Shown piece by piece: positions 1,140 through 63,558 of a stretch of 64,000 nt of DNA (positions are counted from its first letter, which is position 1; each line of letters starts with the position of its first letter). The DNA is taken from the NCBI GenBank assembly GCA_951799425.1, contig OX637402.1, positions 10,320,001-10,384,000 of the forward strand. Direction: 5' to 3'. A program made the position numbers and the translations under genes. Source of the stretch: Ilex aquifolium. Lineage: Eukaryota; Streptophyta; Magnoliopsida; Aquifoliales; Aquifoliaceae. Below the pieces are notes generated by a model. That model was not told where the DNA came from. It worked only from the letters and a program-made list of their open reading frames with translations, and did not search any database.

Positions 1140-3479
1140 TGTGATGCCTCTAAAACCGGGGGTCCTTTATCAACTGTTGATCATCCATCAACCCGTGGAA
1201 GTACCCGTGAATGTCGTACAACCTGACATCATGTCAATAACATCCCCTTAACTGGGATCATGACCCACACATCCGTGGTCCTTTATACATTAGTTCATGC
1301 TCATTAATGTCCAATATAACCTCTTTGAGCAATAGAAATCGATGTCCAAGAGCTTTAGTAAAACATTTCAAAATTTTGTAGTTTTAAGAAAACCTACCGG
1401 TAGAAGTGGTCAAAGTCCTACCGATAGAAGTTGTGCACTAGACCTCTGTTTTTAGAAAATCTAAGAAAACCTATGGGTAGAAGAAGTCTCTGTTCTACCG
1501 GTAGGAGAACCTTATTGGAAAAGTTCTATCGGCTAAACCTACCGGTAGAAGCTGCCTACTGGTCCACATCTATCGGTAGAAGAGCTCAACTTCCTACCGG
1601 TAGGTGTGCCCAAAATTGTCCATTTCATCTGTTTTTTATTTCCAATCCAATCCATATCCAACCCAACACATGTATAGTGAAGTTTTTAGATAAAACATAG
1701 TTCGTACAAGTTCGATTTCCATCATTTTCATATAATTACATGCCAAAACTAAGTTTTCATAATGATTTTACAAAAACTCAAAATAAAGCCACATCTCGGA
1801 TTTTCTTCATCCTTGACGACCCGAATGAGAGCCGTCCACCGGTGTATACCCCGCACCTGAAATATTGTCCCATAAAAGGTGAGCCACACTCAATAGGATA
1901 TCTCCTAAAGAGGCTACTCCCTAACCTAGATGCATATGAAATGTTCACATGCACAATACAACAAACAACAAACATTCCAATCACGAATATGCATTTCAAT
2001 GATAGGAATCACCATGTCATGTCATGAAATGAGGTGAGACTCACTCATGCACATCAACCCGAGCCTTCACCGGCTCCCTCAACACCTGCAAAACCAAAGG
2101 AGTGCGTATCCTAATTAACCGGGTCTTGCACCCGAGAGATAGTCTAGCCCTTCTCGCTAACCGCAACCCAATTTTTAATGCAAACTGTGGGACTCAATCG
2201 AATCTTCGATCCAACTTTCCCGAGCCCACCCATCATCCACCAACTGTGGTGTTTGATGACAACCATGGACACACACCCATACTTATGCCTAATGCCCATG
2301 AATGCGATTTCTCCATGCAAATACAATGTAATGTACGATTGCAATACTATAATCATGTTTAATGTGTTATGAGCGCCACATGAACCATTTCCACCACATT
2401 TGAACAAATACCGTGGCATATTATATCACAAGCATATAATCACCATACTTCATCACACTGTCAATACATCATCAAGCATATATCAAAATTTTAGTCAACA
2501 ACAATTTTCAAGCATGTTATCACATAATCTCATGTAATTAACACACTTAATTCTCCAAGGCAAAATATAAACACATAGCATGCTCATATAACACAATCTT
2601 CCAAGAAATTACAAGCTAGCAATTTCTATATACCAATTCAAGCTAGAATTGATTTCACTAATTACAATACCCATTTCAAAAATAACAACAATAGGTAAGT
2701 GTTATACATCTCTAACAACCTACCCATTCCATATAATCACCCTAGGCTGGAAATAAACCTAATTAGGGAGACAACCCTACCTCTTGAAGCTTAAAATCAC
2801 GGTAGGAAGCTTCAAGAATCCCAAATCACGCCTAGACCCTTGATTTCTCCAAGCCCCGTCTTTGGAACTTCACCCAAATCAATGCTTCTTGGTATGGTTT
2901 TGTAGCCCTCGACGAGGAGAAAAACTTTTGTTCTTGGCTTGTGTTGATTCGAGCAACGTGGAGGCGTAGATCGTAGAGAGAAGGCTTGAAACCCTTTCTC
3001 TTTCTCTCTCCTCTTCCTCTCTGTTTTCTATCGGATAAAAGGCTGAGAATTAGGGAAAAAAATCAGATTTTATTCCCCTTTAATACTCTCTAAATACTTG
3101 GTCCTCATTCCGCCACACATTCTCCTTTCCCGGGTCCGATTTTGACCCGAATCGATTAAATTTCGTCCTGGTTCAAGTTCAAAACATTTTTATATGAAAA
3201 AGATTTAAATTATCGTCCAATTTTCAAAATTTTATTCCTGGGTTCGTTTATGTGGTCGCCCGACACCCGCTCGCCTCGTACAACGTGAAAAATCTGACTG
3301 TCTCGAAATTCGACGAAAATTACTGGTGTAGCTAGATTTCGCAAGAAAAATCCAATGTTGAGGTCCGTTTTGTCATCCGAGTTCTAAAAAAATTCGGGTT
3401 TTCAAACTATACTGTAACATAAAATTTACCGTTTTGCCTTTTTTTCATAAAAAAGTTCAAATTTACCCGGGTTTTTACT
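1140..3479 (-). mobile_element. Solo LTR, Tekay-type, nested in the LTR 1-4046
   Basis: It begins TGTGATGCC at 1140 and ends in a slightly worn ACCCGGGTTTTTACT at 3479. It is flanked by gtaag (1135-1139) and gtaaa (3480-3484), a near-perfect 5-bp target duplication. The host LTR resumes in register after it: the text around 1120-1139 and 3485-3510 matches the continuous text around 31200-31230 of the intact LTR. No internal region remains, so it is a solo LTR of about 2340 bp. It contains the palindrome array at 1394-1603 and the CGGGT/ACCCG hairpin at 2120-2134. Confidence 0.82.
1394..1603. repeat. Palindrome array, CTACCGGTAG type (8 copies)
   Basis: Copies of the self-complementary 10-mer CTACCGGTAG or close variants start at 1394, 1418, 1471, 1495, 1526, 1539, 1570 and 1594. 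Spacings are 24, 53, 24, 31, 13, 31 and 24. The array lies about 250-460 bp from the 3' end of its LTR in element sense, as in the related LTR at 62317. Variants such as CTACCGATAG and CTATCGGTAG differ at one C or G of the central CCGG. Confidence 0.85.
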
Positions 3480-10483: not shown

Positions 10484-12833
10484 TGTAAACCCCCACATGT
10501 TATATTAATATAGTAATGTACTTGTGTAGTATTCTCCTATGTGTAGTGACGGTAGGAATGAAAAACAAAAAAAAAAAAAAAAAACTAGAGATGCAAATTG
10601 ATTGGGAGGTTTAATTTTCGAAGAGGTGGAAACTTGAGAAGAGGGATTATGGAAGTTTCTAAATATTTTTAGGTCAAAATAAGTTGTCCATTGAATCCGG
10701 AAGGTCGAAAAACATTGGGAGAGGTAATATGGGGTGTATTGGAAGCTAGGAAGTATTCCGGAGTGAAAACACACTTAGAGAAATTTTGGGTAAAAAAGAG
10801 TTGTGACACCTTCTAGTATTTAGGTCATAACTTTTGATCCTTATATCCAATTGATCTGAAATTTGGACAGTAGATAGTAGACATCTAGGGCTACAAAAGT
10901 GTATCTAATGAAACTTTTCTAATTCAACCTCTAAATGGGTCAAACATTCCCTGGAAGTCGAAGTAGCCGAAGTGTACCGGAACACAGTACCGGTACGGTA
11001 CCGTACCGGTACGCCCGAACCAGTAGCTAAACCATACCGGTACAGCGTACCGGTATGCCCGAAGTTTGGCACAGTAAAATTCAGGATTTTGGTGTTTTAA
11101 AACACCCTTTTAAGCCTCATTTGACCCATTCTTCCATCCCACTCTCACCCCAAACATCTTAGAGCCCTAAGAGAAGAGAAAAGGAGAGAAAAACACAAAG
11201 ATCTTGAGAGAGTTACCCCTTATAGAGATCAAAACCGAAATTCCTCAAGAACACCGTTCTTCTACTATCTTCTTCTACACTTTCACTACACCCTTACCCA
11301 CACCTCTTGGAATCCTAGAGAGAGTCTTAGAAAAGAATAAAGAAGGAGAAAACACAAGATCAAAAGGGAAAAACAAAGGATTTAAGAGTGATTCAAGATC
11401 AAACCCTAGATTTCAAGAACACCAAGGTAGGGGTTTCCTTCCATTCACTTACATTGAGGCTAGGGTTATTATATATTTATGATTTGGACTTCTAATCATA
11501 TTTATTTGCTATGGGTTCCTTGTCTCTTGGTATTATTGCAAACTTGATTATGTTTTGAGAAAAGTTATGGGTGGAGAGCCATAAAAACCTTAGTTTGTGA
11601 GAAACATGGATTTCTCTCTCTATCTTCACTCAAATTCGGTTTGGAAAACTATAGTGCTTTGTGTTGAGTATTGAAATGCTATTGTACATGATCTCTTGTA
11701 TTTTTCTTCATTGTTATTTGAAATTGTCTCATGATGGATTTGTGGATTTTATGGAATTTGCGTGAGAATTTGGGGGTTTATGGTATTGTTAGAATGTGAG
11801 ATATTTGTTGGTATTTTATCTCTTGCGTGGTTGTACGATACGAACATGGATTACTATGGACCAGGTATCATGTAGTGGGTAGACGTCTTTGTATGCCACG
11901 CGGGTATGAATTTTTCCTACCACATGGAGTGGGTAGACACCTTTGTACGCCGTGTGGGTATGAACTTTTCCTATCACTAATGATCACGGATTAGTAACGT
12001 GAGTTGTGTCGGACATACAGTGTGGGTTATCATGCATTGTACCAGAAATGGTTTCGACAAGAGTTTCGGGAAGTATGGGATTCCGCGAGAACTTGTTGGA
12101 AACGGTTTATGGTAGAATGGATTACCAATGGTATATGGTGTTTATTTATCCATTTCAATTACTGTTGCTATCTAAACTTGAGATCTGTTTAAATGTCCTC
12201 GTTTTACTTCAAATGTTATATATGTTATTTGTGAAATGAGACCGACCGTTTTATATACTTTTCTAAACCTTGTTTGGGTTTGGGAGGATTTTTCTACAGA
12301 GCTTCGTGCTCACCCCCTACAGTTGAACATTTTTCAGATTTTGTGCCAGAGGATGAGCTCGGTGCTAACGAGTCGGGCCATGGAGAGGCTTCACTAGAGG
12401 GATACTTGGATCCCGAGTGGGACATCTAGAGATGTCGTTTACTTTTGTTCTAGACTAGAATATTCTTTTGAAACACTGTGTAGTCTAGATTTCTTTTGTA
12501 ATTTCCGCTGCTCTATAATAGTTAATTTTTCTTTTGGAAATGTAAAGGCCAAAGATGGCATATTCTTTTGGGATGATATGGTGGATATTACCTATGGTGA
12601 ATGAAATTTTATTTTGTGAGGTATAAATGGACCCGGTGTGGTCAATGTAGTATAATTGCACAGGTTGGGTATTTGGGTAGAGCTCCCCGTACAAAGGAGA
12701 CTCTGCCCGAATTTTGTTAAATTAAGGAATGATTTTTATGAAGTCTTATTTATGGATGGTTTATCTTAGTGCTCTCATGATGTAAATGGTTTTAGTATGT
12801 AATGCCGTCCAGGGTGGTTTTGGGGGCGTTACA
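10484..12833 (+). mobile_element. Solo LTR, TGTAAACCCC...GGCGTTACA, with perfect 5-bp duplication
   Basis: It begins TGTAAACCCC and ends GGGGGCGTTACA. It is flanked on both sides by acacc (10479-10483 and 12834-12838). The surrounding Athila 3' sequence is continuous across it when compared with 28860-28900 in reverse complement. Length is 2350 bp with no internal region. It shares with the Tekay LTRs the wording GCTCACCCCCTACAG...AACATTTTTCAG near 12310-12340 and GGACCCGGTGTGGTC near 12630, so it is a diverged member of that superfamily. It carries the tight palindrome cluster at 10974-11056. Confidence 0.9.
10974..11056. repeat. Palindrome cluster, GTACCGGTAC type (5 copies)
   Basis: GTACCGGTAC or one-off variants start at 10974, 10987, 11003, 11034 and 11047 (spacings 13, 16, 31, 13). 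The motif shares the ACCGGT core with the CTACCGGTAG arrays but has different outer bases on both sides, so it stays palindromic. Unlike the other Tekay-type arrays, it lies in the first 600 bp of the LTR. Confidence 0.75.
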
Positions 12834-14371: not shown

Positions 14372-16197
14372 TGATAAGCGCGTAATATTGCATATTTAAT
14401 GGCCTCATTACATGCATTTTAAATCAACTTTGCATTTAATTACTTAGAGTTCTTCGAATTTGTGAATAATGTGAAAATTTTGATGTTGCAGGTAATCATA
14501 GAGTAATTGATGGCTTTTGGAACCCTACAACTAAGTGTGGATGAGTGGTAAAGACATGGACACATTATGTGAGGAATAGGAGGCTTAAAAGTGAAAGAAA
14601 TCAAGGAATTATCGGTACCTGGTAACATAGGTACCGGCACCCATACCATTTGATATCGGTACCTAGGTATTCCCCATTTTTTATCATGATCCACTTCGAA
14701 TCTAAAAAAGTAAAAAAAATGAAAGTTGTAAATCTGGATGTCCTTTGTCTTGTTTCAAAATTGCAGTTTAATCAGACGGTGCGATCAAAAGTTATGACAA
14801 ATTTACGAAAAGAACTATGGGTAGAAGACATGTAAAACCTATCAGTAGAAGACCCTATTGGAAGTTTTCTACCGGTAGAAGTCCTACGTTCTACCGATAG
14901 AACTTGCCCAGAAAGCCCAAAAACGTCACCACACGACTTCCCCAACCACGGGGGCCCACCTTTTGTCCTCTAAACCATGCCCTGACATTTTTAACACTCC
15001 ATGATGATCTCCTAACCCCTATATTCAGATTTGAAGCATGAGAGAGTGGGTGGCCAAGGAAGAGAGAGGGAATGGTTGGAAAAGGAAAGGGTCCATGCCT
15101 TTTGACTGACTTTGGAAGCTTTTTGGACAACCTGTGCCCACAAGCAACCTATCTCAGCACACTCAAGGGTATAGAGAGAGGGATGGATGAAAATATAAGT
15201 CTTCCTACATATATTTTCATATATCAAGATTTTAGAAAGAGAAGAAAGCTACTTAAGCATATGAGTAGTGTAGAGAGAGAAAGCTAGGGTTCTTGCTTTT
15301 CCTTCACATTTTCATTCTTGTAAGCTTCAATCTACATATATTCTTTCTTTCTAGCACTTTAATCTCTCTGATTTCAAGTTAAATTGAGTTTAGCTAGGAT
15401 TTTCTAGTTCTATTGCTTTTATTTGGGTATTTTCTCTTTAAGTTTTACATTTTGTGTATGAATGCTATTTCTTTTGTAGTTTAAACTTCTCCTTACATTA
15501 ATGCAAGTTCATGTTTGATTTCATTACCATGTTTTTCTCTTTCATGTTTGTTCTTACCTTTACCATGCATAGCTAAACCTTTAGTTGGCTAATCCAATAG
15601 GGATTTCCTCTTGGGTATGTGAAATCGGCTCTCTTTCATTCTTCCTCGTAGTGTAAAGTGTTTGGTTTGACTAGGTTGAGTGCGAACGTGGTTGTGGGCG
15701 CTTGATACACCGTAGACTTGTCACGGGGTATGCTTTTGCCCAACATAATCGCATTAGTTCCTCACTTCTTACGAATCAATAAAACACTGAGACACCATTG
15801 GTTGAATGAAATGAGTCGATTTGGCATACTCATTGGAATGAACTCTATGAATTAGCCAACCCTCTTTTTACTTGCATATTTCTCAAAACACAAACCACCA
15901 AACTTCAAATCACAGTATTTTTCATTTTTCCTTTTCACAAATCACTTTTAAAAACACTTGTCCTTTCCTTTTCTGAGGAGACGACCTTGGAATACTCATT
16001 CCAAGTAAAACATGACACTGCAAGTCTCTCTACGCTTGGGGAGCACTTTTGCACACACGCAAGTTTTTGTTCACACACAAGATTTTTCCCATTTCTTGCA
16101 TCGAACCCGAGAGAGAGTGAAACTCACTAACTTGTATAAGCCATATACACACAATCCGGGCTCATGTTTGGAGATTAGGGAAAACCCCATCCAAGCA
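14372..16197 (+). mobile_element. Athila-type 3' LTR
   Basis: It starts TGATAAGCG directly after the PPT and ends GGAAAACCCCATCCAAGCA, the same end (in reverse complement) as the LTRs at 20748 and 52202, which begin TGCTTGATGG. Length is 1826 bp. The palindrome array is in the first 530 bp (U3). The block around 15980-16150, with GAGACGACCTTGGAATACTCATTCC in two parts and TATAAGCCATATACACAC, matches the other Athila LTRs closely. Its partner LTR is not in the window. Confidence 0.85.
14614..14900. repeat. Mixed palindrome array: GGTACC then CTACCGGTAG
   Basis: GGTACC occurs at 14614, 14630 and 14658. CTACCGGTAG-type copies then start at 14815, 14839, 14869 and 14891 (spacings 24, 30, 22). 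The 3' flank AACTTGCCCAGAAAGCCC at 14901 recurs beside the internal array at 27001-27024 (there ACTTGCCCAGAATTCC in element sense). The array lies in U3. Confidence 0.8.
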
Positions 16198-20747: not shown

Positions 20748-22475
20748 TGCTTGATGGTTTTCCCTAACTTCCAACTCAAACCCGAATTATGTGTATATAT
20801 GGCTTATAGAGGTTGGTGAGTGTCACTCTCCCTCGAGTTCAATGTGAGAAGTGGGGAAAATCGTGTGTGGATGAACAAAAATTTTTGTGCACAAAATTGC
20901 TCCCCAAGCATAGAGAGATTCTTGCGATGTCGTGATTTACTTGGAATGAGCATTCCAAGGTCGTCTCCTCAGGGAAGGCGAAGTCGAATATTTTTGAAGG
21001 GTGATTTGTGAAAAAGTTAAAATTTGAAAATCTTTTGATTTGAATTTTGGTGAGTTGTGAGTTAAGAAATATGCAAGAAAACAAGATTGGCTAATCCATA
21101 GAGGTCATTCTAATGAGAATGCCAAATCGACTCATTTCATTCAACCAATGGTGTCTCGGTGTTTGATTGATTCGCAGGAAGTAAGGGACTAATGTAGTTG
21201 TGTTGGAAAAAAGCATACCCCATGACATGTATACGGTGTATCAAGAGCCCACAACCAGGTCCGCATTCAACCTAGTCAAACCAAACACTTTAGACTAGGA
21301 GGAATAATGGAAGAGAGTAGATTTCACATACCCAAGAGGAAATCCCTCTTGGATTAGCCAACTAAAAGTTTAGCTATGCATGGTAAACGAAAGAACAAAC
21401 ATGAAAGAGAAAGACATTGTGATGAAATCAAACATAGACTTGTATAAATGTAGAAGAAAGTTTAAACTACAAAAAAAATGACATTCATACTTACAGAAGA
21501 TAAAATACCCAAATATAAAAATGAAATAGAAGGACACTTAGCTAAATTTCATTACAACTTGAATAAAAGAGATTAGAGTCCAAAAGGGAAAAGATTACAA
21601 GTTAAATGGAGCTTACTACAATGAAAATGGTGACGAAAAATGTGAAAAACTCAACTTCTCTCTCTAAAACTTCATCTTCTACCTTGGAGCTTCTCTCTCT
21701 AAAAGTATTGTAATCTAAAATTGTGTGTAGGGAGTGCTACTTTCATCCATTCCCTCTATCCTTAGCATGAGTGACTGACTTAGAGTGATTGGAGAGAGGT
21801 TGTCCACTCAAAGAAGCAGAATCAGTCAAGGCATGGACCTCCCATTCTTTTCCAACCACTCCTTTTTCTTTCCCTTGACACCCCACTCTCTCATGCTTGC
21901 AATCTGAATATAGGGGTTAGGAGATCATCACTGCGTGTTAAAAATGTCAGAGCATGGTTTAGAGGAAAAAGGGTGGGCCCCCGTAGTTGGTGAAGTTGTG
22001 TGGAGGAGTGTCTGAGCTTTGTAGGCAACTCCTACTGGTAGGTCGTAGGGATTCTACCAGTAGCTCACTTCCAGTAAGGTATGCTATCGGTAGCTCGTAA
22101 GGGTTCTACTGGTAGGTCTTGCAGGGAGGCACTTAAGCTGCTTTTCAGTAGGCTCTTCTACCGGTAGGTCTTAAGTCTTTTACTGATAGGTCTTCTATCG
22201 GTAGGTCTTGCATGTCTTCTACCGGTAGGTCTCATCCTTGTCTTGGAATTCTTTGCTCCTTGAGCTCCCGAGCAATCTGTCATGAGGTCCCCTCCTCCCC
22301 ATTCACCCTGATCACATGATGGGGTGCTTAATGTTTGCCCTTTCCAGCCTATTACCTCAAGTCAAACAATCTCCATTAATTATCAATTCGGATCCATTTT
22401 CCCACAAATTCACTACAAAACAAGTGGAATTTTATGAAATGAAGAAGTATAATATGCAATATTCCACACTCATCA
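20748..22475 (-). mobile_element. Athila 3' LTR
   Basis: It runs from TGCTTGATGG at 20748 to ACACTCATCA at 22475 (element start TGATGAGTGT), 1728 bp. The plus-strand right edge abuts the PPT. It aligns with 52202-53833 over its whole length, including the array in U3 (22032-22228). Confidence 0.9.
22032..22228. repeat. Palindrome array, CTACCGGTAG type, in U3 (8 copies)
   Basis: Copies or variants start at 22032, 22054, 22084, 22106, 22158, 22180, 22195 and 22219. Spacings are 22, 30, 22, 52, 22, 15 and 24. Variants CTACTGGTAG, CTACCAGTAG and CTATCGGTAG differ by C-to-T or G-to-A changes in the central CCGG, the pattern left by deamination of methylated cytosine. Confidence 0.88.
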
Positions 22476-22490: not shown

Positions 22491-24050
22491 ACTTTGCTAG
22501 TCCCTAGCAAACATTATTTCGAAATCATACTACATTTATGACAATTCCATTCATGTAAAACAATTCATGGATCAATAAGTTACTCAAATCACATTACAAT
22601 TATGTAAATGAACTTGGGCATAATGAAACAAAAGCAAAGTTCTTTCATTCATAAAATGTGTTAGATTCAGTACAAAGAACTCAAGACAAAACGGCTTGTG
22701 TTCCTAGGGGCTCTTCTACTAGGTCGACTACTCCTAGACCACTATCCCCCAATATATACAACCAACAAAAAACATGATCAAACTCTCTCTCTAATCCTCC
22801 TCCTCATCATCATCCTCATCGTTCTCCTCGTCCTATGACTCATCCACCTCTACAACAGTCGAGCCGGTGGGGGCAATTACCCGGAGGTCAGCACTAGTCC
22901 CCGGAGCAGATGATGGGAACTCTGGTGCAATAGGCGGTGGTGGCATCTCGTGGAGAGGCTCTCCTAGGAAGGTCCTCTAAAAAATCCTAGTTTCCATCAG
23001 CTTCAGAAGCTGCATAGTCCCCCCGAAGTTGTCCATCATCCCCTCGATAGCATCAAGGCACTAAGAGACTATCCGAGGTGGGGCAGTGGTGGATGGCCCC
23101 GCTGTGGATGGTCTAGCTGTAGGTGGCTTGACTCTAGATGACCTAGATCTCTCGTCTCTTTGTGCAGACCCTCCAGTCATGCCCACCCTCTTCATGCTGC
23201 TCAGCTTGCCAATATGGCCTAACTCGGGTGAAAGTGTCCCATCTGTGGGATGCCCTTAACCTTGGCATGGCGACACATCTTGGTGACGAGGTAGGCGTAA
23301 GGAAGATTCACCCTCGGCTTCGTTACCTGGGCGTAGTCCTTCATCACCTCCCATATCATCAAGGCTATGTCCATCTGGGTGCCAGTCATGAACGCATAGA
23401 GGAGGGCTAGTTTTTCCTCCCCTGGTGTCTTATCCGCACCCTGAGGCAAAAGGTTGTAATGCAGCACTTTTTTCATCACCCCATAGGAATGCTTGAGTGC
23501 ACCAACTTGAATCTTCCCATTGAACTACACAGGGTCCGCATAAATTAGGCTAGCATACTCTTGGATTGATTTCCTCCCTGGGTGTTATAAGGATAAACCG
23601 GGGAGTTGGTAGTAGGTCTCTAATACTGTAACGCCTCAGCAATGATTGCGGGGGTGACCTCTGTAAAACCCGAGAAAATTTCAACCTTTGTGAAAAAGGG
23701 CAAAACGGTAGATTGCCACTACGGTACAGGTTGTAAACCTGAATTTTTCTAGAACTCGGATGACGAAACGGACCTCACCGTTGGATTCGTCTCGCGAAAT
23801 CTAGTTACCACGTCAAATTTCGTTGAATTCCGAGATAGTCGGATTTTTCGCGTTTTACGAGACGAACGGGCCCCGGGTGACCCTGTACACGAAATTTTTA
23901 TAAAGTTTCCAAGTTTGGAGAAATATTAAACACAAGTTAAAATAAAAATAATTCGAACTTGAACCGGAGCGAAATTTAATCGTTTCGGGATTAAAACGGA
24001 CCCGAAATTAAATAGGACGTGTGGCGAATTGTGGGCCAAGTATTCTAAAA

Positions 24051-24058
24051 TATAAATA
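24051..24058 (+). promoter_or_regulatory. TATA box of the solo LTR
   Basis: TATAAATA lies about 390 bp from the LTR start and is followed by a GA-rich leader (24100-24135). The matching places in sister LTRs also have TATAAATA (59197-59204, and 31504-31511 on the minus strand). Confidence 0.7.
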
Positions 24059-24937
24059 GGGGGAAAAATTAGATTTTTCCCCATTGTTCAGCCGGTTTCA
24101 GCCGATAGAGAGAAAGAGGGAGAAAAGAGAGAAAAACTCACCTTCTCTCTACGATCTATGGTGCTACGGACCTCGAATCCACGCAAGCCAAGAATTAAAG
24201 TCGCTCTACTCATCGAGGGCTACGCGGCTATACCAAAAAGCGCAAGTTTTACCGAAGATTAAGGTACGGGATTTTCGAGAAGTGAGGATTTTGCTTGAAT
24301 CGGGTCTTGGAACTTCCCTCGGTCGTTCCTCACGCTTCAAGAGGTAGGGTTTCTTCCTACTAAGGTTTATTCCAAGCCTATAATGTTTTTATGGAATGGG
24401 TAGGATGATAGCCTATGTATCTCTTGCCTATTGTTGTGAAATTGGGTGAATTGGGTATTGAAATGGGTAAAGGAAATCCTAGCTTGGATGGATATTTAGA
24501 AGTTACTAAATGTGATTTCTATGATTGGATATGTGAAATGAACCCAATGTGAATTCATGTGTTATATGAAATTGTGGGCGTGTTATGTGTTTATATATAT
24601 GCCTTGAGATTTTAGTATGTTGATAACATGCTTGGAATTTGTATTATGGGAATTATATGTTTTTGATATGATTTTGCCATGGAATATGAGAAATGTGTTG
24701 AGAATGTTTATATGCCACTCATACCATATCGAACATTGTATTGGTGTTGCAATGGAGCACCACATTGCATATGCACGGGAACATCGCATTTTAGGAGGTG
24801 TGTGTGCATGGTTGTTTGTCTTCACCACGCATGGTGGATGACGAGTGAGCTTGGGTAATATGGGTCGATGACCTAGTCGAGTAGCATGGTTTATATGTTG
24901 ATAGGGTTGGGGTAGCAAGAAGGGCTAGAAAATCCCT

Positions 24938-24952
24938 CGGGTGAGAGACCCG
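24938..24952 (+). other. Conserved LTR hairpin CGGGT-loop-ACCCG
   Basis: A 5-bp stem CGGGT/ACCCG closes a 5-nt loop GAGAG. At the same place the stem is kept in other Tekay-type LTRs while the loop is GCAAG (2120-2134, 30535-30549) or TAAAA (60394-60408, with one G-U pair). It lies in the transcribed part of the LTR, downstream of the TATA box. Confidence 0.6.
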
Positions 24953-25646
24953 GTGATTGGATACGCACTCCGTTGGTATAAGAGCCCATAAAGTGTGTCG
25001 GTGTACGCGGAACCGTTGGTGGAAGTCCATGAATTCCGTGTAGGTTGGGTGACCTTTGGTGTGAGTCCATGAACATCCACCCCTACAAAGACCCTAGAAT
25101 GAAATGTCATTTGATGTGGAACAAAAATGACGGATTGGTACACATTGGCACTTGCATGTGTAGAGGAGCCGGGAAGGGCTCGGTTGATGTGCATGAGTGA
25201 GTCTCACCTCATTTCATAGCATGGCATTACATGTTTCAACATGGAATATATTCTTGTTGTGGATTGTTGATTGATAGCATGTGACATTTCATATGCATTT
25301 AGGTTGGGGAGTAGCCTCTTTAGGAGATACCCTATTGAGCGTGGCTCACCCTTTATGGGAAAAACATTTCAGGCGTGGGTTTTGCTCCGGCCGATGGCTC
25401 ATTTGGAGAGCATCAAGCATGAAGGGGGCCGGCTTGTGGCCTTAGTTTAAGTTTTGTAAAACCTTTAACAAAATTCCATTTTGATGTATATGTATTATGG
25501 AATGAATTGTAATAGAGCTTGTATGAGTTGGGTATTATATGGAAAATCTCATTAAACATGTATTGAATGAGTTTGGAGTGTATGGGGTAGCTTTAAGGAT
25601 GGTTTGGAGGGGAAAGAAATCCATTTTTATGCTCACAGTCTGAAAA

Positions 25647-26038
25647 CCTACCGGAAGGTGTGTGTCGGCCTTCCGGAAGGTTTTGCTAAAAACCCCAGCT
25701 TGCCTTGTTCACAGCTAATACCTTCCGGAAGGTTTTGCCCACTGGAATGAACCTTCCGGAAGATTTTAGCTACTAGAGTAAAACCTACCGGAAGGACTTG
25801 TCTACTGGAATGGACCTTCCGGAAGGTTTTGCCTTGGGTTTCTTTTTGACTGCTAAATTCTTCCGGAAGGCTTTGTTTTCTGGAATGAACCTTCCGGAAG
25901 GTTTCGGCTACTGGAATGAACCTTCCGGAAGGTTTTTGCTACTGATGTCGACCTTCCGGAAGTTCTTGAAATTGATCATTTTCATTTAACTGTTCTTTCA
26001 GCGACCTTCCGGTAGGTGTATGTCGACCTTCCGGAAGG
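25647..26038. repeat. Palindrome array, CCTTCCGGAAGG type (12 copies)
   Basis: Copies start at 25647, 25669, 25721, 25752, 25784, 25815, 25859, 25890, 25921, 25952, 26005 and 26027. Spacings are 22, 52, 31, 32, 31, 44, 31, 31, 31, 53 and 22. Most are perfect 12-bp palindromes. Hybrids CCTACCGGAAGG (25647, 25784) and CCTTCCGGTAGG (26005) have one half of the CTACCGGTAG type. Long spacers carry the wording TGCCCACTGGAATGAA, close to TGCCTATTGGAATTAT in the CTACCGGTAG array at 62647-62834. Confidence 0.92.
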
Positions 26039-27024
26039 TTTTTCCCAAAAAATTTTGAAATTTTCAAAATGCTTAGCCATGCTTTTGGGCTTTGTTTTCT
26101 TTGGTTCCTATGACATAAATGGACATAAATAGAGGTATAATTGACCTTGTGGATGGTAAATCCGATTAAAAGCATGTGAATGACGTGGTGTCGGGTTATA
26201 CGACTATCACGAGAATTTCCGCGGGTTGACGGATGGTCAACGGTTAATAAAGGACCCCCGGAAATTTGGGGTGTCACAACCTCAATCACCTTCCCCCTCA
26301 CATTCGTCTTCAACAAAAACAAATCCATATCCACCACCTCTAAATTCTAATAAAATTCCCTAAAAATGGGAAGCACAAACCCCTCCACTGCCTAGAACCA
26401 AAAATGTAGGCCATGCCCCTCAATCACCCGGACCACGTCATCATGTGGCCTGAGGGAGGGCCTATCCACTTGTCGCTCGCACGTCACATTCTTAGCCTTA
26501 ATGTTCTTCGTGCGAGGGTCATTCCTCTTCTTCTTCCTCTACTCCCTACTGCTGGGGGCCGACTCTTCATCCCTCTTGTGGGACCCAGTTCGCACAGGAG
26601 GTGGTGAGCCAGGGCCTATTTGCTTAGTGCGGGCCATCACAATAAAAAATGCCCCTAGGGCGGCAAACGAACAACAACCATCCCCAAAATAACTTTAAAA
26701 TCCAGAAAGACGAAGGTGTAGGTAGTCTTATCTATTCGAGCCATTGTTTCCAAAATTCCAAGCCTTGAGTGGATTTGATGATGCTTTATGGAGGAAAGAG
26801 GGTTTCTGGGGGAAAATAGGTTAAGGATGCGAAGAGGGAAACGGGGAATCAAGAACTTGAGGGAGAAATTTGATGGATTTTAGGGATACCCAGGGTTTCT
26901 TCGAATGTTTGGAGGGTTTTGGGAGAGGAGATAATGTTTTTTAGAGAGAGATCAATGAAGGAGATAAAGGGTTTTCCCGAAAATTGTGGTTTAAAACCCT
27001 CATTTTTGGAATTCTGGGCAAGTG

Positions 27025-27280
27025 CTACCAGTAGCTCGTCAGCCTTCTATCAGTAGAAAATCCTTCTGTAAAACTTCGACCGGTTGCTCTTCAGACTTCT
27101 ACCAATAGAAAACCCTTCTGGAAAACTTCTACCGGTAGCTCTTCAGACTTCTACCAGTATAAAACCCTTCTGGAAACCTTCTAACGGTAGCTATTAACTA
27201 TTCTACTAGTAGGTCTCCTTTTTGCTGTTTCAGCCATTTTGCTAAGAGCTACCGGTAGGTAATGAGTATTCTACTAGTAG
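27025..27280. repeat. Palindrome array upstream of the Athila env-like ORF (10 copies)
   Basis: CTACCGGTAG-type copies start at 27025, 27047, 27077, 27099, 27129, 27151, 27181, 27203, 27249 and 27271. Spacings are 22, 30, 22, 30, 22, 30, 22, 46 and 22, an almost perfect alternation of 22 and 30. The array ends about 390 bp before the env-like start codon at 26637. The adjoining wording ACTTGCCCAGAATTCC (element sense) is shared with the U3 array flank at 14902, so this segment looks homologous to an LTR U3. Confidence 0.9.
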
Positions 27281-29553: not shown

Positions 29554-30534
29554 TGTGACACCCCAAAACCCGGGGGTCCGTTGATTTCCCATCAACCCGC
29601 GGAATACCCGTGGATACCGGGTAACTCGGTATCGCGCCGTTATGCCCCATTTACCGGGGTCCATAATTTAACAAAATTCGGGCAGAGTCTCCTTTGTACG
29701 GGGAGCTCTACCCAAAACTCAACCTGTGCAATATATTTTCACATGACCCATCCGAGGCCCAATATAAAGCAATGACCGCACCGGGTCCATTTATAAGTAA
29801 ACATTGACCACACCAGGTCTATTTATCCATACTTATAAACATTGACCACACCGGGTCCATTTATCCCTACCTATGTCAAAACATGCAAAGTTGTTTTAAC
29901 AATAATTCATATAAGTTCTATTACAATTATTTGCAAAAGATTTCATGCCCAAGACATAAGTTTCACAAATGTTTTACATTAACACAAAATAAAGCCACAT
30001 TCGGCTTTCTTCAAACATGAGGGTCCGAATTGGAGCCATCCACCGGTGTATTTCTCCCACCTGAAATGTGTTCCCGTATAGGGTGAGCCAACGCCCAGTA
30101 GAGTATATCCTACAAAGGCTACTCCACACCTTAGATGCATATGAAATGTGTACATGCAACAAACAACATTTAACAACCATTCCATACAAGAATATGCATT
30201 CAATGTTGGAATGCTACCATGTCAAGCCATGAAATGAGGTGAGACTCACTCATGCATCTTAACCCAAGTCCTTACCGACTCCTACAACACAATGCAATGC
30301 CAATGTGTAGTAACCCCATCAAATGATAGAAAATACATCCAATGACCGTTTGAATTGAAAACATGTATTTGCAAAATCAAATCATTGTTGGATGTCACCC
30401 ATTGAATGAGAGTTTATGTAATCAAAATCTTGTGTCTCGTTGGGCAACGGATTTTGGATTTTATACCACCGGTTCCGTACACCACACTACACTTTTCCGG
30501 AATTTCACCACAGGGGAGTGTATAACCAAGTCGC

Positions 30535-38530: not shown

Positions 38531-40880
38531 TGTGACACCCCAAAACCCGGGGGTCCGTTGATTTCCCATCAACCCGCGGAATACCCGTGGATACCGGGTA
38601 ACTCGGTATCGCGCCGTTATGCCCCATTTACCGGGGTCCATAATTTAACAAAATTCGGGCAGAGTCTCCTTTGTACGGGGAGCTCTACCCAAAACTCAAC
38701 CTGTGTAATATATTTTCACATAACCCATCCGAGGGCTAATATAAAGCAATGACCGCACCGGGTCCATTTATAAGTAAACATTGACCACACCAGGTCTATT
38801 TATCCATACTTATAAACATTGACCACACCGGGTCCATTTATCCCTACCTATGTCAAAACATGCAAAGTTGTTTTAACAATAATTCATATAAGTTCTATTA
38901 CAATTATTTGCAAAAGATTACATGCCCAAGACATAAGTTTCACAAGTGTTTTACATTAACACAAAATAAAGCCACATTCGGCTTTCTTCAAACATGAGGG
39001 TCCGAATTGGAGCCATCCACCGGTGTATTTCTCCCACCTGAAATGTGTTCCCGTATAGGGTGAGCCAACGCCCAGTAGAGTATATCCTACAAAGGCTACT
39101 CCCCACCTTAGATGCATATGAAATGTGTACATGCAACAAACAACATTTAACAACCATTCCATACAAGAATATGCATTCAATGTTGGAATGCTACCATGTC
39201 ATGCCATGAAATGAGGTGAGACTCACTCATGCATCTTAACCCAAGTCCTTACCGACTCCTACAACACAATGCAATGCCAATGTGTAGTAACCCCATCAAC
39301 TGATAGAAAATACATCCAATGACCGTTTGAATTGAAAACAAGTATTTGCAAAATCAAATCATTGTTGGATGTCACCCATTGAATGAGTGTTTATGTAATC
39401 AAAATCTTGTGTCTCGCTGGGCAACGGATTTTGGATTTTATACCGCCGGTTCCGTACACCACACTACACTTTTCCGGAATTTCACCACAGGGGAGTGTAT
39501 AACCAAGTCGCCGGGTCTTGCACCCGAGGGGGGGATCTACCCCTTCTTGCTATACCCGACACAAGTTTTTTCTTCCATGCAGCCATGCGACTCAGTCGGA
39601 TTTTCAACCCAACTTTCCCGAGCCCACCCATCAATCACCAAGAATGGTGTTTGATTAACCATGCATACACACCCACACTCAAGCCTAAGCCCATGAATGT
39701 GATGTCAATGTCATGCTCAATATGCAATCATGCCCAATGAGAAATTTTATCACATGTTCAATATGTAATGGGTGCCATACGAACAATTTCCCATGGCAAT
39801 TTATATTACAAACATATAAATACCATATTTTGTCACAATGTTAATATATCAAAACATGCATATGTCAACAATTCCTTCACTACAATATCCAAGAATGCTA
39901 TACATCATTGTGTCATAACAAACTTTATCCACACATAGGCATTTAGCAAACACCATCAAGGCAATCATCATGTTATCACACAATTTGCCCACATAATAAC
40001 AAGTTACAAGAAAATTTCACAAGTAACTTCCCTAGACCAAATTTAACAAGGAATTTATCTAGGCCATTTCTATATTCCTTTCATGATTCCCATGACTATA
40101 GACAAGTCATAACAACTCTATACATCTAACCATTACTTATGACACCATAGGTTAGAAATGAACCAAGGTAGGAGGGAACCCTACCTCTTGGAGCGTAAAA
40201 CAACCGGTAGAACCTCCAAGAACAAGATTTAAGTCCAAATATTTGATTTTCCCAAAAATCCCGTCTTTGGATCTTCAGTGAAATCAGCTCTTTTTGGTAT
40301 GTACGCGTAGCCCTTGTCGAGTAGATGAACTTTGACTTCTGGACTGACGAATTCCGACGGACGGAACTCCCGGAATCGGCGAAAGAAAACTTGAAAAACC
40401 ACTTTTTCTCTCTTCTCTCTCCTCACACGGTTCAGCACTGATTTTTAGAGATATTATGTGTAAAATATCTGATTTAGGTCGATATTTATAGGCAAAAATG
40501 TGCGGTCCACATCGCACCGCATATTTTCGACTTCCGGATCCGTTTTTCATCCCGAAACGATCCATTATACCTCGAATTAAGTTCAAATTAATTTTATTTG
40601 AACTTTCACTTTTTCTTTAAGATATTTTATAAAAAAAATTTTTTAGGGACCCCTGGAATTTCAGTCGCCACGCAGTCACCTCGAACGACGTACAAAAATC
40701 CGACTATCTCGGAATTCAACGAAATTTGACAGGGTGACTCGATTTCGCGATACGAATCCAACGGCGAACTCCGTTTCCTCATCCGAGGTCTAGAGCATGA
40801 GTATTTCAAATAAGCATTAGGATAGCAAATGACCATTTTGCCCTTATTCACAAAAATTCAAAATTTACCCGGGTTTCACA
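38531..40880 (-). mobile_element. Tekay LTR B (shared middle LTR)
   Basis: It runs from TGTGACACCCC at 38531 to GGGTTTCACA at 40880, 2350 bp. It serves as the 5' LTR of unit 1 and the 3' LTR of unit 2. It shares some variants with LTR A and others with LTR C. Confidence 0.95.
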
Positions 40881-44193: not shown

Positions 44194-46539
44194 TGTGACA
44201 CCCCAAAACCCGGGGGTCCGTTGATTTCCCATCAACCCGCGGAATACCCGTGGATACCGGGTAACTCGGTATCGCGCCGTTATGCCCCATTTACCGGGGT
44301 CCATAATTTAACAAAATTCCGGCAGAGTCTCCTTTGTACGGGGAGCTCTACCCAAAACTCAACCTGTGCAATATATTTTCACATGACCCATCCGAGGCCC
44401 AATATAAAGCAATGACCGCACCGGGTCCATTTATAAGTAAACATTGACCACACCAGGTCTATTTATCCATACTTATAAACATTGACCACACCGGGTCCAT
44501 TTATCCCTACCTATGTCAAAACATGCAAAGTTGTTTTAACAATAATTCATATAAGTTCTATTACAATTATTTGCAAAAGATTACATGCCCAAGACATAAG
44601 TTTCACAAGTGTTTTACATTAACACAAAATAAATCCACATTCGGCTTTCTTCAAACATGAGGGTCCGAATTGGAGCCATCCACCGGTGTATTTCTCCCAC
44701 CTGAAATGTGTTCCCATATAAGGTGAGCCAATGCCCAGTAGAGTATATCCTACAAAGGCGACTCCCCACCTTAGATGCATATGAAATGTGTACATGTAAC
44801 AAACAACATTTAACAACCATTCCATACAAGAATATGCATTCAATGTTGGAATGCTACCATGTCATGCCATGAAATGAGGTGAGACTCACTCATGCATCTT
44901 AACCCAAGTCCTTACCGACTCCTACAACACAATGCAATGCCAATGTGTAGTAACCCCATCAACTGATGGAAAATACATCCAATGACCGTTTGAATTGAAA
45001 ACATGTATTTGCAAAATCAAATCATTGTTGGATGTCACCCATTGAATGAGTGTTTATGTAATCAAAATCTTGTGTCTCGTTGGGCAACGAATTTTGGATT
45101 TTATACCGCCGGTTCCGTACACCACACTACACTTTTCCGGAATTTCACCACAGGGGAGTGTATAACCAAGTTGCCGGGTCTTGCACCCGAGGGGGGGATC
45201 TACCCCTTCTTGCTATACCCGACACAAGTTTTTCTTTCATGCAGCCATGCGACTCAGTCGGATTTTCAACCCAACTTTCCCGAGCCCACCCATCAATCAC
45301 CAAGAATGGTGTTTGATTAACCATGCATACACACCCACACTCAAGCCTAAGCCCATGAATGTGATGTCAATGTCATGCTCAATATGCAATCATGCCCAAT
45401 GAGAAATTTTATCACATGTTCAATATGTAATGGGTGCCATACGAACAATTTCCCATGGCAATTTATATTACAAACATATAAATACCATATTTTGTCACAA
45501 TGTTAATATATCAAAACATGCATATGTCAACAATTCCTTCACTACAATATCCAAGAATGCTATACATCATTGTGTCATAACAAACTTTATCCACACATAG
45601 GCATTTAGCAAACATCATCAAGGCAATCATCATGTTATCACACAATTTGCCCACATAATAACAAGTTACAAGAAAATTTCACAAGTAACTTCCCTAGACC
45701 AAATTTAACAAGGAATTTATCTAGGCCATTTCTATATTCCTTTCATGATTCCCATGACTATAGACAAGTCATAACAACTCTATACATCTAACCATTACTT
45801 ATGACACCATAGGTCAGAAATGAACCAAGGTAGGAGGAAACCTTACCTCTTGGAGCGTAAAACAACCGGTAGAACCTCCAAGAACAAGATTTAAGTCCAA
45901 ATATTTGATTTTCCCAAAATCCCGTCTTTGGATCTTCGGTGAAATCAGCTCTTTTTGGTATGTACGCGTAGCCCTTGTCGCGTAGATGAACTTTGACTTC
46001 TGGCTGACGAATTCCGACGGACGGAACTCCCAGAATCGGCGAAAGAAAACTTGAAAAACCACTTTTTCTCTCTTCTCTCTCCTCACACGGTTCAGCACTG
46101 ATTTTTAGAGATATTATGTGTAAAATATCTGATTTAGGTCGATATTTATAGGAAAAAATGTGCGGTCCACATCGCACCGCATATTTTCGACTTCCGGCTC
46201 CGTTTTTCATCCCGAAACGATCCATTATACCTCGAATTAAGTTCAAATTAATTTTATTTGAACTTTCACTTTTTCTTTAAGATATTTTATAAAAAAATGT
46301 TTTTAGGGACCCATGGAATTTCAGTCGCCACGCAGTCACCTCGAACGACGTACAAAAATCCGACTATCTCGGAATTCAACGAAATTTGACAGGGTGACTC
46401 GATTTCGCGATACGAATCCAACGGCTAACTCCGTTTCCTCATCCGAGGTCTAGAGCATGAGTATTTCAAATAAGCATTAGGATAGCAAATGACCATTTTG
46501 CCCTTATTCACAAAAATTCAAATTTACCCGGGTTTCACA
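44194..46539 (-). mobile_element. Tekay LTR C (5' side)
   Basis: It runs from TGTGACACCCC at 44194 to GGGTTTCACA at 46539, 2346 bp. It is followed by the target duplication cgatc at 46540-46544, after which Athila integrase sequence resumes. Confidence 0.95.
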
Positions 46540-52201: not shown

Positions 52202-53833
52202 TGCTTGATGGTTTTCCTAACTTCAACTCAAACACGAATTATGTGTATATATGGCTTATAGAGGTTGGTGAGTATCACTCTCCCTCGAGTTCAATGTGAG
52301 AAGTGAGAAAAATCGTGTGTGGATAAACAAAAATGTGTGTGTGCAAAATTGCTCCCCAAATGTAGAAAGAGTCTTGCGATGTCGTGATTTACTTGGAATG
52401 AGTATTCCAAGGTCGAAGTTTTTGAAGGGTGATTTGTGACAAAGTGAAAATTGAAAAATCTTGTGATTTGAAGTTTGGAGAGTTGTGAGTTAAGAAATAT
52501 GCAAGAAAGCAAGGTTGGCTAATCCGTAGAGGTCATTCCAATGGGAATGCCAAAAAAACTCATTTCATTCAACCAATGGTGTCTTGGTGTTTGATTGATT
52601 CAGAGGAAGTGAGGGACTAATGTAGTTGTGTTGGGTAAAATCATACCCCGTGACAAGTCTACGGTGTATCAAGAGCCCACAACCATGTCTGCACTCAACC
52701 TATTCAAACCAAACACTTTACACTACGAGGAAGAATGGAAGAGAGTCGATTTCACATACCCAAGAGGAAATCCATCTTGGATTAGCCAACTAAAAGTATA
52801 GCTATTCATGGTAAAACAAAGAACAAACATGAACGAGAAAGACATTGTGATGAAATCAAACATATACTTGTATAAATGTAGAAGAAAGTTTAAGTTACAA
52901 AAGAAATGACATTCATACTCGAAATACAAAGTTCAAAGAGAAAATACCAAAATGTAAAGATGAACTACAAGGACACTTAGCTAAACTTGATTACAACTTA
53001 AATAAAAATAGATTAGAGTGCAAAAGGGAAAGATTAAAAGTTAAATGGAGCTTAATACAATGAAAATGTTGAAGGAAAAGGTAAAAAACCCAACTTCTCT
53101 CTCTAAAACTTCATCTTCTATCTTGGAGCTTCTCTCTCTAAAAGTATTGTAATTTGAAATTGTGTAGAGAACCTTTTTTTCGTCCATTCCCTCTCTCCTT
53201 AGCTTGAGTGATTGACTTGGAGTGATTGGAGAGAGGTTCTCCATTCAAAGAAGCAAAATCAGTCAAGGCATGGACCTCCCATGCTTTTCCAACCACTACC
53301 TTTCTCTCCCTTGGCTTCCCACTCCCTCATGCTAGCAATCTGAATGTAGGGGTTAGGAGATCATCATGGGGTGTTAAAAATGTCAGGGCATGGTTTAGAG
53401 GACAAAAGGTGGGCCCCCGTAGTTGGTGATGCCATGTGGAGGAGTGTTTGAGCTTTCTGGGAAACTCCTTGCGATAGGTCGTAGGGATTCTACCGGTAGC
53501 TCACTTCCTGTAAAGTATGCTACCAGTAGCTCGTAAGGGTTCTTCTGGTAGGTCTTACAGGGAGGCACTTAAGCTGCTTTCCGGTAGGCTCTTCTATCGG
53601 TAGGTCTTCTACCGGTACATCTTGCATGTCTTCTACCGATAGGTCTCATCCTTGTCTTGGAATTCTTTCCTCCTTGAGCTCTCGAGCCAGCTGTCATGAG
53701 GCCCCTTCCTCCCCATTCACCTTGATAGGGTGCTTAATGCATGCCCTTTCGAGCCCATTACCTATAATCAAACAAATCTCCGTCAATTTTGATGAAATGA
53801 AGATGTATAATATGAAATATTGCACACTCATCA
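52202..53833 (-). mobile_element. Athila 5' LTR
   Basis: It runs from TGCTTGATGG at 52202 to ACACTCATCA at 53833, 1632 bp. It pairs with 20748-22475. It is followed by taaaa, close to taaac before the other LTR. Confidence 0.92.
53468..53642. repeat. Palindrome array in the 5' LTR of the Athila element
   Basis: CTACCGGTAG-type copies start at 53468, 53490, 53520, 53542, 53594, 53609 and 53633. Spacings are 22, 30, 22, 52, 15 and 24, the same sequence of spacings as the other LTR of this element once its extra copy at 22180 is allowed for. Confidence 0.88.
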
Positions 53834-62316: not shown

Positions 62317-63558
62317 TGTGATGCCCCTAAAACCGAGAATCATTTGTCAACCCGTTGATTACCCATCAACCCCCAGAAGTACCCATGAATGTCGTATAAA
62401 CCGACACTACGGCAATAACATCCTATTCACCGGGATCATAAACAACACAGCGTTTGGGCAGATTCTCCCTTGTACCGGACACTCCCAAACGCATAATCTG
62501 TGTACATTTAAATCACTTGACCCTTTAAAGGTCCAATATGCATCAATTTGCCCTTAATTTTACTCCATTTACATCCCTTTGACAAAAGGACTCAAGGTCC
62601 GGAAGCTTGACAAAAATATTTTAATTTTCTAAAAATTTGAGGGAACCTACCGGTAAATAATCGACGTTCTACCGGTAGAAGTGCCCATAGGAATTCTTCT
62701 ACCGGTAGATAATCAACGTTCTACCGGTAGAAGTGCCTACTAGAATTCTTCTACTGGTAGATACTCGACGTTCTACCGGTAGAAGTGCCTATTGGAATTA
62801 TTCTACCGGTAGATAATCAATGTTCTATCGGTAGAAGTGTCCAGTTTGCCCCCAATTCAATCTTTTTTCAATTCAAACTCATCCAATCTCATACAACATC
62901 CACCCAAACTCATATAACATACTATTTTACACAAAACGTAGTCCATATGAGTTCGTTTTACAATCCTTTATACAATATTACATATCCAAAACTAAATTAC
63001 ATATTTGTTTTACAAAAAAAGTAATTTAAAGCCACATCTCGACTTTTCTTCATTAATGAGGGCCGAAGTGATAGTCATCCACCGACGCTTGTCCCACACC
63101 TGAAATGTTGCCCCCATAAAGGGTGAGCCACACTCAATAGGGTATCTCCTAAAGTGGCTACTCCCCAACCTAGATTCATATGAAATGCTCACATGCAATT
63201 CAACAATCAAACAACCTTCATCCAAGAAGATACAACTTCAAGAATGAATGTCATAATGTCATGCCATGTTATGAGGTGAGCCTCACACATGCAATGCAAC
63301 CCGATTCTTCACTGGCTCCCATATCACATGCAATGCCATGCGTATGAATCTGGGCAATCCAAGCCCCCGCCATTGATGTTACACATCCAATGATCATTAT
63401 AAATTCTAGGTTTTTCTAGGGGTGGGTATTTATGGACCTAAACCAAGGGGAACCTAATCGAAACGACATTTATGGACTTCTACCAATGGCTCCACATATG
63501 CTGAGACACTTTATGGACTCAATACTACTTGATTGTGTTCACCCTAATCTTCGAACAT
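62317..63558 (-). mobile_element. Tekay-type LTR, 3' part with palindrome array
   Basis: It begins TGTGATGCCCCTAAAACCG at 62317, as in the solo LTR at 1140. It holds the array (62647-62834) and the GGTGAGCCACACTCAATAGG module near 63122-63141. Similarity to the other LTRs fades near 63558, where Athila LTR sequence starts, so the 5' part in element sense is missing. No target duplication was found. Confidence 0.75.
62647..62834. repeat. Palindrome array, CTACCGGTAG type, 52-bp period (8 copies)
   Basis: Copies start at 62647, 62669, 62699, 62721, 62751, 62773, 62803 and 62825, with spacings 22, 30, 22, 30, 22, 30, 22. Five of the eight are the perfect 10-bp palindrome. The short spacer is like ATAATCAACGTT and the long one like AAGTGCCTATTGGAATTATT. 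Confidence 0.95.

Follow-up and report, generated by a model that had tools for sequence, protein, structure and literature searches.

Palindrome arrays of two half-site types in long terminal repeats of Ilex aquifolium: putative dimer sites that may switch array-wide and pass between LTR backbones

We analyzed a 64,000-nucleotide stretch of the Ilex aquifolium genome (GenBank assembly GCA_951799425.1, contig OX637402.1, forward-strand positions 10,320,001 to 10,384,000), hereafter the window, which sits on contig C12 of the 800 Mb searched. Its subject of interest is an array of CCGG-centred palindromes, starting at window position 25647, in a long terminal repeat (LTR) of the Ty3/gypsy type, together with related arrays throughout the genome. 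The arrays come in two types, distinguished by the pair of letters marked '?' in CCT?CCGG?AGG: T..A defines the TT type and A..T the TA type. Both types are present in each of three LTR groups, and the same spacer letters carry either of them. With moderate confidence we propose that these are putative dimer-site arrays, whose two half-site types switch array-wide with the protein that reads them, and that arrays are in addition imported from one LTR backbone into another.

The states of the diagnostic pair are distributed very unevenly. Genome-wide, the TT palindrome CCTTCCGGAAGG occurs at 17,078 sites (reversed control 175) and the TA palindrome CCTACCGGTAGG at 3,175 (reversed control 10). 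Hybrids, which combine one half of each type, account for 3,259 sites (control 692). G or C on one side of the pair is found at 181 sites (control 95), 18 times more rarely than hybrids, and G or C on both sides at 11 (control 20): five C..G, no G..C and six unmatched. All states together make up 23,704 sites in one genome, a total that counts related copies many times. If hybrids were products of mutational decay, one-sided G/C states should be at least as frequent; since they are 18 times rarer, the half-sites GGAAGG (TT) and GGTAGG (TA) are likely the functional units. As G..C and C..G stay at background, symmetry as such does not appear to be the kept trait.

Matched differences between palindromes behind unchanged spacers are real. 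When both diagnostic letters are allowed to vary behind a constant spacer, TTTTCCANTGNGCAAAAC, all 61 genome-wide sites are matched (37 TT, 24 TA); there are no hybrids and no other letters, compared with 29.1 hybrids expected under independent halves, the copies being related to each other. We fetched 18 of the 61 loci. In the related LTRs of loci L100 (TA) and L094 (TT), two neighbouring spacers are identical at 21/21 and 11/12 letters, and both diagnostic letters differ in all three palindromes. Outside the array the two LTRs are only 71% (left) and 84% (right) alike. Being better kept than the flanks, the long spacer is probably a second functional motif. A first-pass annotation of the window had proposed that the palindrome was replaced while the spacer stayed; this is borne out at these loci, although not, as described below, at 25647 itself.

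LTR groups were obtained from an all-versus-all flank comparison with the arrays masked, which gave one connected component that was split by the pairs listed. Clade I includes the window arrays at 25647, 1394 and 62647, clade II those at 14815, 22032 and 53490, and the third group comprises 27025, L051 and L058 plus the TT array L081. The TA-type arrays of the window are:

1394..1603, minus strand: TA-type array in a related LTR (3' end near 1140, LTR end by homology)
62647..62834, minus strand: TA-type array in a related LTR (3' end at 62317, from sequence)
14815..14900, plus strand relative to L077: TA-type array, clade II
22032..22228, minus strand relative to L077: TA-type array, clade II
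53468..53642, minus strand relative to L077: TA-type array, clade II
27025..27280, no strand assigned: decayed TA-type array on the third backbone, related to L051 and L058 by flank comparison

The LTR sense of L077 (clade II) was judged from a G run resembling a polypurine tract (PPT). As L096, L097, L105 and L106 turned out to be of clade II type in reverse, phylogenetic trees of the flanks were built clade by clade. The final clade I tree omits L001, L055, L069 and L074 and retains L103 despite its long branch; the final clade II tree omits L097, L071, L072, L023, L061 and the window array at 14815 (W14815), which have long or mosaic flanks. The minimum number of type changes is five on both flanks of clade I (bootstrap 4-5) and two in clade II (bootstrap 2-3); earlier trees gave two (9 clade I rows) and four (24 clade II rows). 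A single TT clade is rejected for the clade I left flank (p 0.003) and for clade II (p 0.033). Since the LTRs are mosaics, the number of type changes should be considered soft.

For the scoring of purity, halves and spacers, sites were accepted at no more than two mismatches and spacer-core lookalikes (e.g. CTACTGGAA) were dropped, a filter that also removes some decayed hybrids (one in L049). No foreign half-letter is present in 28 of the 39 arrays scored, and the most mixed one, the window array at 53490, has 4/18. Departures from the majority letter are independent between the halves at all six core pairs in TT arrays, and at pairs 1, 2 and 5 in TA arrays. Half-site positions +6 and +7 are stricter in the TT type (G 0.88, T 0.92) than in the TA type (0.55, 0.57). 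Thus, the types differ beyond one letter, as would be expected of sites for two reading proteins.

The window LTR that holds the 25647 array has the following features:

23662..26278, plus strand: solo LTR, Ty3/gypsy-type, TGT...ACA ends (ends and ACCTC duplication from sequence)
23657..23661, plus strand: target-site duplication ACCTC, left (from sequence)
26279..26283, plus strand: target-site duplication ACCTC, right (from sequence)
25647..26039, plus strand: array of 12 CCGG-centred palindromes with spacings 22, 52, 31, 32, 31, 44, 31, 31, 31, 53, 22 (from sequence)
25647..25658 (site 25648), no strand assigned: hybrid palindrome CCTACCGGAAGG, hybrid diagnostic pair in 23/23 close copies scored
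25784..25795 (site 25785), no strand assigned: hybrid palindrome CCTACCGGAAGG, hybrid in 23/23
26005..26016 (site 26006), no strand assigned: hybrid palindrome CCTTCCGGTAGG, hybrid in 23/23
26124..26131, plus strand: TATA-like box CATAAATA, 86 bases past the last palindrome core (from sequence)
26246..26251, plus strand: AATAAA, possible polyadenylation signal (from sequence)

At 2.6 kb, with TG..CA ends and a 5-bp duplication, this is a solo LTR; its 3' end was set from the copy in L001, where the primer-binding site (PBS) TTGGTATCAGAGC comes next. Coding domains were read outside it, in other window elements with related LTRs, whose open reading frames (ORFs) match RVP_2, Ty3_capsid, RVT_1 and Integrase_H2C2, covering gag, protease, reverse transcriptase and integrase. 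Chromo matches in two window ORFs are weak and fall under the curated cut-off (E 0.0022 and 0.0033). The Tekay-type label given in the first pass is plausible. A first look at the genome yielded 1,667 candidates for this LTR, and the 40 scored are all 98-100% identical.

The sites of the 25647 array span 25648-26037. The core CTTCCGGAAG is present in 9 of the 12, six of these being the full CCTTCCGGAAGG, so the palindrome array noted in the first pass is genuine and its palindromes are counted far above the reversed controls. It stops 239 bp short of the LTR 3' end (26278), a distance similar to those of the 1394 (254 bp) and 62647 (330 bp) arrays, as had also been noted. The spacer likeness claimed between these arrays is above chance when 25647 and 62647 are compared on the same strand (0/200 shuffles as high). 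However, LTR ends and a PBS place the 25647 LTR on the plus strand and the 1394 and 62647 LTRs on the minus strand, so that the resemblance is between arrays lying in opposite orientations within their LTRs.

The array is common by descent to all 25647-family copies fetched except L042, in which it has collapsed, and therefore the dozen palindrome copies, originally counted as separate paired changes, are not independent events. The close-copy set (n=23) consists of the window copy, L001, L004, L007 and L029-L048 without L042; the 20 family copies fetched were the best matches to the window copy and hence are close relatives. In the relatives L073 and L080, T..A stands at the places of 25648 and 25785. 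At the place of 26006 both are hybrid (for L080, site C1:22304395, at the edge of the fetched stretch), and the more distant L079 has T..A (CTTCTAGAAG). Two of the hybrids, and probably the third, therefore appear to have arisen later by a T to A change on one side, rather than being the intermediates they had been taken for, the direction being deduced from an unrooted comparison. A further one-sided T to A-type change occurs at 26028 in 3/23 copies. Among the 23 copies, no fixed hybrid was converted back, and each of the 35 departures seen in palindrome cells affects one side only, none (0/35) being matched. Of the first 100 hybrids listed genome-wide, 85 are clustered by threes or fours with the spacing of the 25647 family (counted by eye).

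Two further features of these arrays were observed. The spacer core at window 25739-25748 and like places (CTACTGGAAT in relatives) resembles a decayed hybrid palindrome (CTACCGGAAG, C to T at CpG), and this hybrid-like core is conserved across LTR groups. L029 is without one 31-bp unit and L042 (C8:23684845-23685295) is collapsed between palindromes, which thus act as deletion junctions.

The probable source of the 25647 array is a clade II, L079-like LTR, with transfer in LTR-sense orientation. Relative to its LTR, it runs opposite to the arrays of L052, L054, L056, L075, 1394 and 62647, and in the same orientation as clade II arrays in their presumed LTR sense. The nearest arrays to its long spacers belong to clade II in eight cases out of nine (6 TT, 2 TA), and L079 is its best masked match, with a modest E-value of 2e-5. 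The two arrays share their order around the 44, 31 and 53 spacings; likeness is 0.65 for the 44 spacing (0.76 in the relative L080), 0.90 for the best 31 spacing (1.00 in L080) and 0.33 for the 53 spacing. L069 and L074 have 95% of the LTR end in common with 25647, yet contain different TT arrays in the usual orientation. It is this combination of likeness to the array of another LTR group with an orientation opposite to LTR relatives that makes import probable. Template switching between co-packaged RNAs would be its simplest account. We also considered inversion of the array in place; import fits the orientation better, the clade II LTR sense resting on the PPT-like motif.

Part of the clade I arrays stand at a constant distance from a TATA-like box: counted from the last palindrome, NATAAAT begins at offset 93-94 in 14 of 23 arrays (matches at offset 200 in L096, L105 and L106 lie on the wrong strand for the LTR and were not used). 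Across 51 arrays, the spacings cluster at 22-24, 31-32, 43-44 and 52-53. Their phase concentration is 0.74, peaking near 10.2-10.5 bp (periods tried 8-14 bp; relatives unweighted and no shuffle control), as for sites on one helix face. The upstream array, the TATA-like box and the helical phase point to a putative enhancer bound by a dimer. Its reader could come from the host or, as with VANC proteins (PMC5735166), be encoded by the element.

Based on these data, we infer a dimeric protein, selection as the cause of switching, repeated switching in place and template switching. The LTR arrays would be promoter-proximal binding sites for a sequence-specific protein acting as a symmetric dimer, one subunit reading each palindrome half. 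Both GGAAGG (TT) and GGTAGG (TA) would work, and other letters at the diagnostic place would not persist. When the reading protein changes, through a paralogue or altered specificity, selection would switch the array one half-site at a time; as both subunits change together, matched pairs would result. Arrays would pass between LTR backbones as modules, and copy-choice template switching would give them LTR-sense orientation.

Several observations weigh against this explanation, in addition to the repeated counting of relatives in the genome totals. A single TT clade is not rejected for the clade I right flank (p 0.164), nor for two reduced sets from that clade (p 0.085 and 0.237), and well-supported branches by themselves force one type change. 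Symmetry is in excess at TA pairs 3, 4, 6 and 7 (16, 31, 0 and 11 of 1000 shuffles as high), which at pairs 6 and 7 may reflect two sub-forms, GGTAGGT and GGTAGAA. Counting matched and unmatched changes by spacer, the check suggested in the first pass, gave only matched sites behind TTTTCCANTGNGCAAAAC; when the spacer CTACTGGAGTNAAAC is anchored, the first 100 listed of 1,429 matches comprise 54 hybrids, 37 TT and 9 TA (counted by eye). All 54 are CCTACCGGAAGG, and most appear to correspond to the fifth site, a fixed hybrid, of the 25647 family. Finally, although the lower share of minor letters in palindrome cells of this family (35/3,300, against 129/5,703 in spacer cells) favours the proposal, distinct variants per column do not differ (25 in 144 versus 42 in 249), so that the constraint on palindromes rests on shared variants.

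It might be argued that each type arose only once and that whole arrays were exchanged by recombination or template switching, with no repeated switching in place. We consider this rather unlikely. The history of the 25647 array speaks for it, with its clade II-like spacers, its best match in L079 and the other arrays of L069 and L074 next to nearly the same LTR end, and so does the single TT clade that is not rejected in 3/4 clade I tests. On the other hand, the long spacer of the TT array L075 is nearest to that of the TA array L052 of its own clade (0.90), compared with 0.43 at best among the TT arrays scored, all from other clades, and TA and TT arrays of clade I share 21/21 spacer letters.

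Concerted evolution without selection, in which conversion or slippage homogenises the palindromes within an array, is an unlikely alternative. The purity of most arrays, the unit lost in L029 and the collapse in L042 are what it would produce. However, its tracts would need to end at 10-12 bp, sparing diverged spacers; the 35 changed cells of the 25647 family include no matched change, its hybrids stay fixed and G/C states remain at background.

More doubtful still is that LTRs came under the control of a heat-shock factor when TA turned into TT, TTCCGGAA being an nTTCnnGAAn proto-heat-responsive element (proto-HRE) that becomes three-unit with a GAAC spacer end. Contiguous alternating GAA/TTC of three units is indeed found at three places in the window array (GAAnnTTCnnGAA at 25749, 25887 and 25918), and flanks yield it at 16/151 sites of TT arrays versus 1/169 of TA arrays, assuming an identical core; the arrays behind these counts include several that are closely related. 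According to PMC5059998, the HRE of ONSEN grew from such a proto-HRE, yet a lone nTTCnnGAAn is there called non-functional. The third unit is lacking in 135/151 TT sites, and at half-site position +9 the expected C reaches only 11%, with T at 70%; as the general meaning of TT, a heat-shock element is thus weak, although a heat-shock factor may act on part of the TT arrays. Selection for self-complementarity itself, whether for a cruciform or for an RNA hairpin or dimer formed by the U3 copy that lies 3' in the RNA, is very improbable: perfect palindromes could pair with each other and four TA pairs show some excess symmetry, but any Watson-Crick pair would then serve, whereas G..C and C..G number 0 and 5 of the 23,704 sites, TT halves vary independently and hybrids are fixed in an amplified family. 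The selection or conversion on symmetry envisaged in the first pass, for which independent change of the halves was named as the refuting outcome, is accordingly disfavoured, with the TA pairs 3, 4, 6 and 7 as exceptions.

Among the open-access papers listed (titles and abstract starts) we found no such arrays described for LTR elements, but partial parallels exist. The 13-bp repeat of Tto1, reportedly bound by NtMYB2, is a short motif in an LTR promoter and is not known to be palindromic. GGTAGGT, present in part of the TA half-sites, is AC-I-like. Nevertheless, what sets the TA type apart is not a MYB site, and AC-I/MYB as its meaning is not supported, since GG[TA]AGGT is commoner in TT half-sites (212/302, compared with 133/338 in TA arrays). 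A further candidate parallel is the CCGG-centred palindrome of LOB-domain (LBD) homodimers, which are plant-specific; no supporting paper was among those listed in our literature search.

VANDAL transposons are not usually counted among LTR elements. In Arabidopsis, related VANDALs carry arrays of anti-silencing motifs recognized by VANC proteins in one-letter types (C-type and T-type), copies in a repeat diverge together, and motif-reader co-evolution has been proposed (PMC5735166). As there, we find arrays of short motifs with a type common to the copies of one array. The difference is that VANDALs encode their own reader (same source), whereas here the arrays lie in LTRs, the palindromes are perfect and the spacer is conserved too. 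ONSEN/COPIA78 likewise has an LTR element of nTTCnnGAAn half-sites, and HREs evolved repeatedly in LTR families (PMC3907296 and PMC5059998); it differs in having one compact element instead of 2-12 phased sites, and the alternative type here (CTACCGGTAG) is no HRE.

Other arrays were noticed in passing. Another CG-centred palindrome, CGTTCGAACG, forms arrays at window 57647-57993 (6 perfect copies) and L022 8405-8703 (7 perfect copies). GTACCGGTAC palindromes lie at window 10987-11056 and also in L021 and L022; L021 is a tandem repeat of ~1,509 bp whose unit also holds CCTTATAAGG seven times. Sister LTRs at 29762-29874, 38739-38851 and 44402-44514 have no CCGG palindrome array and instead carry a 38-bp array, with GGACCCGGTGTGGTCAA on the minus strand, near the LTR end; its GGTCAA is W-box-like. 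At L023:4886, a single TT palindrome stands upstream of a clean CTATAAATAGGGG box, apparently in another element.

Taken further, the three LTR backbones could share a two-letter regulatory code, with lineages flipping their arrays, in place and by import, and thereby changing an activating or anti-silencing reader, of the host or encoded by the element; we put this forward only tentatively. The arrays would provide a natural replicated series of enhancer-specificity switches, in which shared spacers and LTR flanks carry one of two palindromes at more than 23,000 sites. Such a series lets one ask how a multi-site enhancer changes its reader, which of selection, conversion and import brings about array-wide change, and whether the race between motif and reader reported for VANDAL transposons also takes place in retroelements. 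If true, a two-letter code with array flips would represent such a race outside VANDAL transposons.
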